A DNA stretch of 64,000 nucleotides, taken from the NCBI RefSeq assembly GCF_947367125.1, contig NZ_CANBCQ010000004.1, positions 25,422-89,421 of the forward strand. Direction: 5' to 3'. The position numbers and the translations under genes are program-made. The DNA comes from an uncultured Lactobacillus sp. Lineage in GTDB: Bacteria; Bacillota; Bacilli; Lactobacillales; Lactobacillaceae. Each line of letters begins with the position of its first letter. The first letter of the stretch is position 1. The notes beneath the pieces were generated by a model, which saw only the letters and a list, made by a program, of their open reading frames with translations, searched no databases and had not been told where the DNA came from. Below are positions 27,526-30,732 of this stretch, one piece after another.

Positions 27526-27747
27526 TTACTTCTTATCGAACTTTGTTAACTTAAAGTCAGCATGTTCTTTTTCGTAAGTTAAAGAATTGCCTGTTAACTC
27601 TTGGATGAGTTCAATGTTATAGGGGGTATTGTCCTCAACCGTACTTCTTGCTTCAACCATGTTGTCTGCTTCCATGTAAAGAGTTTGTGTAGTTTCTCTA
27701 CGAGGATTGACAATCTTGTCTTTTTGATACAAAACTTTGTAAATCAT
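27526..27747 (-). CDS. rpoY: RNA polymerase epsilon subunit (DUF1447)
   Basis: 73 aa, [27 protein letters not shown]; upstream of rnjA. Confidence 0.93.
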
Positions 27748-27889: not shown

Positions 27890-27918
27890 TTGACATAAAA
27901 TAACGTCAGTTGTACTAT
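27890..27918 (+). promoter_or_regulatory. predicted sigma-A promoter of the intergenic candidate sRNA
   Basis: TTGACA (27890-27895), 17-bp spacer, TACTAT (27913-27918); no CDS follows. Confidence 0.7.
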
Positions 27919-27924
27919 AAACGT

Positions 27925-28028
27925 GTAGTGAATGATTAATAAACTCATTTGCTCGTTATAAGAAGTCTCTTCACTCTTCTTAATTCCCAATGTATGAGTC
28001 ACTGGCCTAGTCAACCAGTGATTTTTTT
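27925..28028 (+). ncRNA. candidate small RNA between rpoY and def
   Basis: Own promoter as above and intrinsic terminator TCACTGG-cctagtcaa-CCAGTGA-TTTTTTT (27999-28028); no ORF; opposite strand to both flanking genes. Confidence 0.6.
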
Positions 28029-28032
28029 ATGC

Positions 28033-28060
28033 AAAAAAGCCCGCATGTGCAGGCTTTTGC
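28033..28060 (-). terminator. terminator of def (minus strand)
   Basis: Minus strand reads AAAAGCCTGCACATGCGGGCTTTTTT. Confidence 0.8.
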
Positions 28061-28077
28061 TAATTGTTAAATAACAA

Positions 28078-28632
28078 TTAAGAAATTACAACTGTATCTT
28101 CTTTAAGAGCAAATGGATCATTCTTATTAATTCGGTCGTAGAATAAGTGACCATTTAAGTGATCAATTTCGTGAGAAGAAACGATTGCTGGGTAATCTTT
28201 TAAGCGAATAGTCTTTTCTTCACCATCGATAGTGTAGTAATGAATAGTTAGTTTATCTGGACGAGGGACATAGCCATTGATTACTTTATCAACGCTTAAA
28301 CAACCTTCTCCTTCGCTAAGACATGCTTGGCGAACAGATTCAGAAACAATTTCTGGATTAACATAAATTTCTTTAAAAATAATTTTGCCTTGATCATCAG
28401 GAACTAAAAGTGCAGCCATTTGAACGCCTTCACCAACTTGAGGCGCAGCTAAACCTACTCCAGCTCTTAATTGATGCTTTTCGGCAACTTTAGGGTCTTG
28501 AGAATCAATTAAGTATTGCATCATATCATCTGCTAGTTTTTTGTAATGGTCACTAAGTGGGAAAGTTAAAGGCTTAGCAACTTGACGTAAAACGGGATCT
28601 CCGTCACGTACAATATCTTTCATTAAGATCAA
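28078..28632 (-). CDS. def: peptide deformylase
   Basis: [25 protein letters not shown] motifs. Confidence 0.97.
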
Positions 28633-28746: not shown

Positions 28747-28775
28747 TTGACCCGCGTGCAGTTAGGTGGTAAAAT
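28747..28775 (+). promoter_or_regulatory. predicted typA promoter
   Basis: TTGACC (28747-28752), 17-bp spacer, TAAAAT (28770-28775). Confidence 0.65.
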
Positions 28776-28836
28776 TCACTAACGTAACTATACAGATTTA
28801 AGAAAAGCACTTCGATAAAGCGCTAATGCGTTACCG

Positions 28837-28863
28837 AAACTGTGACCGGGTCACAGTTTTTTT
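28837..28863 (+). terminator. terminator-like hairpin in typA 5' leader
   Basis: AAACTGTGAC-cgg-GTCACAGTTT followed by T run, 11 bp before the typA ribosome-binding site GGGGAGG. Confidence 0.75.
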
Positions 28864-28887
28864 ATTGAAGAGTGGGGAGGAATACTT

Positions 28888-30732
28888 TTGTCAGAAAAAA
28901 GAAGAGACGATCTAAGAAACATTGCGATCATTGCCCACGTTGACCATGGTAAAACTACTTTGGTCAACCAATTGTTGAAGCAATCTGATACTTTGCCAGA
29001 ACATATGAATCTGGAAGATCGTGCTATGGACTCAAATGCCATTGAACGTGAACGTGGTATTACTATTTTATCTAAGAACACTGCTGTTAAGTACAAGGAT
29101 ACTACTATCAACATCTTGGATACACCAGGTCACGCCGACTTTGGTGGGGAAGTAGAACGTGTTATGCACATGGTTGACGGTGCATTGCTTTTGGTTGATG
29201 CCTATGAGGGTCCAATGCCACAGACTCGTTTCGTTTTGAAGAAGGCTTTGGAAGCTGGCGTAAAACCTATTGTTGTTTTAAACAAGATTGACCGTCCAGG
29301 TGCTCGTCCTAAGAAGGTTTTAGACGATGTTCTTGAACTCTTTATCGAATTAGGTGCCAATGATGAACAACTTGACTTCCCAGTTGTTTATGCATCAGCT
29401 TTGAATGGTACTTCATCATATGATCCAGATCCAAGTACCCAAAAAGAAACTATGGATCCAATTTTTGATACTATCATTAAGAATATTCCTGCTCCAGTAG
29501 ATAATTCTGATGAGCCATTGCAATTCCAAATCACTATGTTGGATTGGGATGACTATGTTGGTCGTATCGGTGTTGGTAGAATTTACCGTGGTAAGGTTAA
29601 GGTTGGCGACAACATCACTGTTATGAAACGTGATGGCTCAACTCAAAACTTCCGCGTTACTAAATTATTTGGTTACTTTGGTTTGAAGCGTAATGAAATT
29701 AAAGAAGCTAAGGCCGGTGATATCATCGCTATTAGTGGTATTAATGACATTTACGTTGGTGAAACTATTGCTTCAGCTGAACATCCAGAAGCATTACCAT
29801 TACTTAAGATTGATCCACCAACTTTGCAAATGGACTTTGTTGCCAATGACTCACCATTTGCTGGTCGTGAAGGTGATCAAGTAACTCCTAAGAAGCTTGA
29901 AGATCGTTTGATTCGTCAAACTCGTACTGATGTTTCTTTGAAGGTTGAACCAACTGATCAATTAAATGCTTGGACTGTTTCTGGTCGTGGTGAACTTCAC
30001 CTTTCAATTTTGGTTGAAGAACTTCGACGTGAAGGCTTCGAATTGCAACTTTCACGTCCTAAGGTAATTTACCGTGAAATTGATGGTACTATGTGTGAAC
30101 CATTTGAATCAGTACAAATTGATACGCCAGATGAATACGTGGGTTCAGTTATCGATTCTCTTTCACAAAGAAAAGGTGAAATGAAGAACATGGAATCAAC
30201 TGGTAATGGTCAAACTCGTCTTGAATTCTTAGTACCATCACGTGGTTTAATTGGTTACAACAACGAATTTATGTCACAAACTGGTGGTTATGGTATCATG
30301 AACCACACCTTTGATTCATATAAGCCAGTAGTTAAGAACTGGAACCCAGGTCGTCGTAATGGTGCCTTGGTATCTATTAACCAAGGTCAATCTACTACTT
30401 ACTCACTTCAATCAGTAGAACAACGTGGTGAGTTATTCATCGGTGCTGGTGTTGAAGTATACGAAGGTATGATTGTTGGTCAATCAAGTCGTGAACGTGA
30501 CATTGCAGTTAACGTAACTAAGGGTAAGAACTTAACTAACACTCGTGCTGCTGGTAAGGACCACGCTGCTGCTATTAAGACCCCTAGAACTTTAACTCTT
30601 GAAGAAGCTATTGAATTCTTAAATGACGATGAATACTGTGAAGTAACTCCAGAATCTATTCGTTTACGTAAGAAGATCTTGAACACTTCAGAACGTCAAA
30701 AGGCTGACAAGAAGCGTAATCGTGCTAACTAA
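28888..30732 (+). CDS. typA: translational GTPase TypA/BipA
   Basis: [47 protein letters not shown] start. Confidence 0.97.
   Translation: MSEKRRDDLRNIAIIAHVDHGKTTLVNQLLKQSDTLPEHMNLEDRAMDSNAIERERGITILSKNTAVKYKDTTINILDTPGHADFGGEVERVMHMVDGALLLVDAYEGPMPQTRFVLKKALEAGVKPIVVLNKIDRPGARPKKVLDDVLELFIELGANDEQLDFPVVYASALNGTSSYDPDPSTQKETMDPIFDTIIKNIPAPVDNSDEPLQFQITMLDWDDYVGRIGVGRIYRGKVKVGDNITVMKRDGSTQNFRVTKLFGYFGLKRNEIKEAKAGDIIAISGINDIYVGETIASAEHPEALPLLKIDPPTLQMDFVANDSPFAGREGDQVTPKKLEDRLIRQTRTDVSLKVEPTDQLNAWTVSGRGELHLSILVEELRREGFELQLSRPKVIYREIDGTMCEPFESVQIDTPDEYVGSVIDSLSQRKGEMKNMESTGNGQTRLEFLVPSRGLIGYNNEFMSQTGGYGIMNHTFDSYKPVVKNWNPGRRNGALVSINQGQSTTYSLQSVEQRGELFIGAGVEVYEGMIVGQSSRERDIAVNVTKGKNLTNTRAAGKDHAAAIKTPRTLTLEEAIEFLNDDEYCEVTPESIRLRKKILNTSERQKADKKRNRAN

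Follow-up and report, generated by a model that had tools for sequence, protein, structure and literature searches.

A probable small regulatory RNA encoded between rpoY and def in part of the genus Lactobacillus

Does the gap between rpoY and def in this Lactobacillus genome contain a gene of its own, and, if so, what might its product do? In the 64,000-nucleotide stretch of DNA that was analyzed, hereafter the window, rpoY (RNA polymerase epsilon subunit; 27526–27747) and def (peptide deformylase; 28078–28632) both lie on the − strand; the name rpoY was taken from the preliminary description and from the position of the gene before that for RNase J, not from a library scan. The preliminary description had placed a promoter, about 104 nt of RNA and an intrinsic terminator on the + strand, opposite both neighbors, and all of these sequence features are present. 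A −35 element, TTGACA (27890–27895), is followed after a 17-bp spacer by a −10 element, TACTAT (27913–27918), and the terminator (27997–28028) consists of a stem (27997–28005/28015–28023) and seven T residues (28022–28028). The transcript predicted from these signals would extend from 27925 to 28028, about 104 nt, diverging from rpoY and converging on def. Its orientation follows from the order of the −35 and −10 elements and from the T-tract, which comes after the stem on the + strand only. A simple terminator scan of the window omits this terminator because its 9-nt loop exceeds the limit of 8 used in the scan. Although the fold of the predicted transcript is better than those of all 200 shuffled sequences (z −3.6), promoter patterns of this type are expected 0.99 times by chance in 64 kb and were found once. 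The sequence of the window is thus suggestive, and it is the comparison between genomes that decides.

The element is present in 21 of 75 Lactobacillus genomes. We located rpoY in 73 of the 75 and could extract the rpoY–def gap from 71, as the contig ends there in genomes G085 and G064. The gap measures 332–413 bp in 20 genomes and 120–226 bp in the other 51, and all of the long gaps contain the element; G085 is an additional carrier, in which the element lies beside def where another contig begins. In carriers, the element occurs as a single copy at this same locus. Named carriers include L. kalixensis, L. kitasatonis, L. xujianguonis, L. hominis, L. hamsteri, L. kefiranofaciens, L. gallinarum, L. 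agrestimuris, L. ultunensis and L. rodentium. On a tree of def and rpoY, whose deep branches are weak, the carriers form three groups, one of which encloses two non-carriers, and the carrier label requires 5 changes, compared with 17.7 for shuffled labels; a single origin followed by losses is plausible.

Outside the genus, the core described below is absent from all matches in the 401 genomes of the family that were scanned; what these matches (best E = 4.6e-5) have in common with the element is a terminator-like stem. When 85,462 species genomes were scanned for the pattern, the sole match lacking the element was in Lactobacillus sp. YT155, where the flanks and fold are not those of the family and the sequence resembles coding sequence. 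Matches with two mismatches elsewhere in the genus are coding-like or in unrelated places, and the viral, plasmid and phage collections searched contain no copies. In everything searched, the family appears confined to part of the genus Lactobacillus.

Which parts of the element are conserved? Among 15 sequences of the main carrier group, conservation sets in sharply at the −35 element: mean pairwise identity is 0.51 upstream, 0.88 in the −35 element, 0.82 in the first ten bases of the spacer, 0.79 in the −10 element, 0.76 in the 5′ hairpin, 0.98 in the core, 0.63 in the terminator and 0.45 downstream. A putative promoter of the form TTGAC-N17-TANNAT is kept in 16 carriers and one of the TTGACA type in the remainder. 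The T-tract is also kept among carriers, so that each RNA would have a terminator of its own. The conserved half of the spacer, TAAAATAACG (TAAAATAAC; 27896–27905, +), is nearly as conserved as the adjoining −35 element and is missing from the hominis/rodentium group; its conservation suggests an operator or a special promoter feature.

The predicted RNA contains three hairpins. In the 5′ hairpin (helix 1, 27927–27953; arms 27927–27935 and 27945–27953), pairing is retained while the letters drift, with two-sided changes at 4 of 9 pairs; in the terminator stem (helix 3), all 9 pairs have such changes. Together these two helices contain 54 two-sided compensatory cells, a number that none of 500 shuffles reached. 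Over all three helices, compensatory changes occur at 13 pairs and 98.1% of cells are paired in an alignment of 20 members, which was fitted to the model and so leans towards structure; helices slid out of register gave values far below these. An alignment of 16 members made with MAFFT gave a weaker result but the same answer (18 two-sided cells compared with 5.0 for shuffles, none of 500 reaching the observed number). When five divergent members were folded singly, the same three hairpins were the lowest-energy folds, with z scores of −3.1 or better in four and −2.0 in L. agrestimuris. Complementarity is the sole support for helix 2, which is near-invariant. In L. kefiranofaciens, a 25-bp direct repeat duplicates the 5′ arm of helix 1, such that the RNA would begin with two alternative copies of this arm.

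Between helices 1 and 3 lies the nearly invariant 29-nt core (27960–27988), which includes the central hairpin (helix 2; arms 27960–27965 and 27976–27981) and its CU-rich 10-nt loop (27966–27975). The loop reads UCUCUUCACU in the window and UCUCUUCAAU in most relatives, and the letters UCUUCA are common to both carrier groups. A predicted single-stranded linker, AAUUCCCAAUGUAUG (27982–27996), follows; its AAUUCCC is kept in 15 of 16 members of one carrier group, while the hominis/rodentium group has AAGUAACAUG or AAGUAACAUA instead. Loop and linker are thus both conserved and, in the folding model, unpaired, as a seed would be. Of the alternative stems first proposed, AATGA/TCATT belongs to the conserved 5′ hairpin, but AGTGAA/TTCACT is not a conserved fold, since it needs a C at 27974 that occurs in the window's genome alone, other carriers having A or T at this position of the loop. 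Likewise, the pyrimidine-rich stretch is predicted to be exposed in part: the loop TCTCTTCACT and AATTCCCAATGTATG would be accessible, whereas CTTCTT would form the 3′ arm of the central hairpin.

The conserved promoter and terminator, the compensatory pairs, the fixed locus, the lack of a coding pattern and the absence of an Rfam match strongly support the proposal of a free-standing non-coding RNA gene. On this comparative evidence, the stand-alone gene of about 104 bases very probably encodes a real regulatory RNA.

How would such an RNA act? We think it probable that this small RNA (sRNA) of part of the genus acts in trans by base-pairing with one or more mRNAs. RNA polymerase containing the housekeeping sigma factor would transcribe the gene, and the transcript would end at the U-tract. 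The loop, UCUCUUCA(A/C)U, and the neighboring single strand would be exposed and could pair with mRNA, probably at or near ribosome-binding sites (RBSs); the 5′ hairpin and the terminator would be kept for their shape and the core for its letters, through which the partner is recognized. Kept letters in an exposed loop and the single strand beside it, together with drifting outer stems, are the look of a base-pairing RNA. The CU-rich loop and the C-containing single strand argue for this reading by analogy with known base-pairing sRNAs. Counting against it, stem and loop of the central hairpin are equally invariant, beyond what a seed presented in a loop needs, and AAUUCCC, which is the first half of the single strand at the 3′ side of the core, differs between the two carrier groups. 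The third point against it is that candidate target sites at rplW, typA and mvaD were no better than controls and did not co-vary with the RNA.

These target searches covered sites complementary to the core in 16–19 carrier genomes, and pairing was tested for rplW, typA, mvaD and 52 gene leaders of the window. The anti-Shine-Dalgarno character ascribed earlier to the CU-rich stretch may be real, but the core shows no preference for RBSs beyond that due to its composition: in 16% of composition-shuffled cores, the preference for gene leaders relative to gene bodies is equal or stronger. The mvaD Shine-Dalgarno (SD) sequence was rejected as a target, since genomes that lack the RNA have an equally good GATTGAGGA site, which the window's genome has lost. 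The typA SD was also rejected, being equally complementary in genomes that lack the RNA. Although typA is the best of the 52 window leaders, it is so solely through the window's A-to-C change in the loop; with the C at 27974 (+), predicted pairing to the leader of typA in the window strengthens from about −18 to −25 kcal/mol, which is within chance. Three percent of composition-shuffled cores reach this typA score, and pairing of the consensus core with the typA leader is unremarkable, as 66% of shuffles are as good.

Because the pairing tests at rplW, mvaD and typA and the test of leader preference failed, a protein partner is a serious rival. The hairpin AAGAAG-UCUCUUCAAU-CUUCUU could be a binding site through which a real sRNA sequesters, guides or regulates an RNA-binding protein. 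The stem and loop are both near-invariant, including the UCUUCA found in both carrier groups; this invariance of the stem fits a protein partner at least as well as it fits base-pairing, and our searches supported no mRNA target. However, we recognized no known protein-binding motif in the hairpin and have no candidate protein, and a conserved stem may equally serve to present a seed. We regard a protein-mediated role as possible but rather doubtful.

It has also to be considered that the core might pair with the rplD–rplW junction and repress translation of rplW, and so part of the S10 operon. In searches with the complement of the whole core, rplW was the only gene to recur; the site covers its SD, where as many as 21 contiguous pairs are possible in L. 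agrestimuris and L. kefiranofaciens. However, the site is about equally complementary in genomes that lack the sRNA: across 68 genomes, mean pairing energies were −20.8 kcal/mol without the sRNA, −22.1 in main-group carriers and −17.3 in the hominis group. Moreover, the RplD reading frame constrains the site, pairing in the window's genome ranks with the weakest, and site and sRNA do not co-vary, such changes as occur being non-compensatory. Repression of rplW is therefore very unlikely. A broader proposal, that the sRNA coordinates translation genes through one invariant seed at the RBSs of rplW (in the S10 operon) and typA, would make an RNA, in place of a ribosomal protein, the regulator of ribosomal-protein output, and we find it very improbable indeed. 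The end of rplD, which overlaps the rplW RBS, reads AAGAAGATTGAGGAGG in many Lactobacillus genomes, a sequence that is simultaneously coding sequence and SD.

That the transcript encodes a short peptide is extremely unlikely: a short ATG frame runs through the core in three carriers, but indels upstream of the core change the frame from one species to the next so that none is retained, frames end after a few codons and at differing positions in other carriers, the window included, and third positions of the core show no freedom. The statement that the region has no ORF was nearly right, as a 41-codon frame with a TTG start (27949–28074) crosses it and is broken by indels in relatives. The view that this is non-functional, drifting intergenic DNA whose promoter and terminator arose by chance deserves hardly any credence: although chance yields such a promoter about once per 64 kb and some 70% of Lactobacillus genomes lack the element, the near-identity of the core between flanks at 0.45–0.51 and the compensatory changes, unmatched in shuffles, argue against it.

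Is this trans-acting RNA, as we read it, already known? A check against the Rfam 15 covariance models, which could have revealed a known family, gave no match to the element at or above the gathering threshold, and a permissive scan of the window's gap gave sub-threshold matches only, mostly on terminator hairpin stems. The papers searched contain no description of an RNA at the rpoY–def locus, although subscription papers and supplements were outside our reach and an unnamed entry in an RNA-seq table is possible. From the sequence comparisons, we conclude that the element represents a new family of sRNAs; its type is well known and unsurprising, but the family is solid. RsaE/RoxS, LhrC and the CiaR-controlled csRNAs are trans-acting sRNAs of Gram-positive bacteria in which C- or CU-rich stretches are exposed. 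Like these, the RNA predicted here is a short stand-alone transcript with hairpins and a terminator in a Gram-positive host, and it has a conserved, exposed pyrimidine-rich stretch. Unlike them, it has a core of mixed U and C (UCUCUUCAAU) in place of C-runs, it matches nothing in Rfam 15 by sequence or covariance, and it has no supported target here.

6S RNA forms one long bulged hairpin, whereas the RNA described here would form three separate short hairpins in about 104 nt and has no Rfam 6S match. Both would be stand-alone non-coding RNAs of lactobacilli; the 6S RNA of lactic acid bacteria is the subject of PMC8414754. The sRNAs that sequencing revealed in L. casei BL23 are, like the new family, intergenic and from Lactobacillaceae, and are mostly group-specific; the study detected no homologues of them in L. 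acidophilus NCFM (PMC8220740). They belong, however, to another genus in present taxonomy and cannot be the same as the new family, since no member of it was found outside Lactobacillus. Knowledge of sRNAs in the genus Lactobacillus is sparse, and the papers searched contain no match to this family, which combines firm comparative support with a defined fold and a near-unchanging core. Close relatives with and without the element provide natural knock-outs.

Finally, we note two other elements in the window. The only gathering-level Rfam match is a lysine riboswitch (RF00168; 50420–50594, +; 99.6 bits). The typA/bipA leader (28747–28887, +; typA starts at 28888) contains a terminator-type hairpin, GAAACTGTGACCGGGTCACAGTTTTTTT (28836–28860), directly before the typA RBS. 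In the main group, a conserved TTGACC-17-TAAAAT promoter and the motif CACTTCGAT lie upstream of it. Of 71 Lactobacillus genomes, 69 retain the hairpin letters CTGTG...CACAG; such strict sequence conservation is rare in terminators, and the hairpin is a candidate attenuator or regulated leader of typA.
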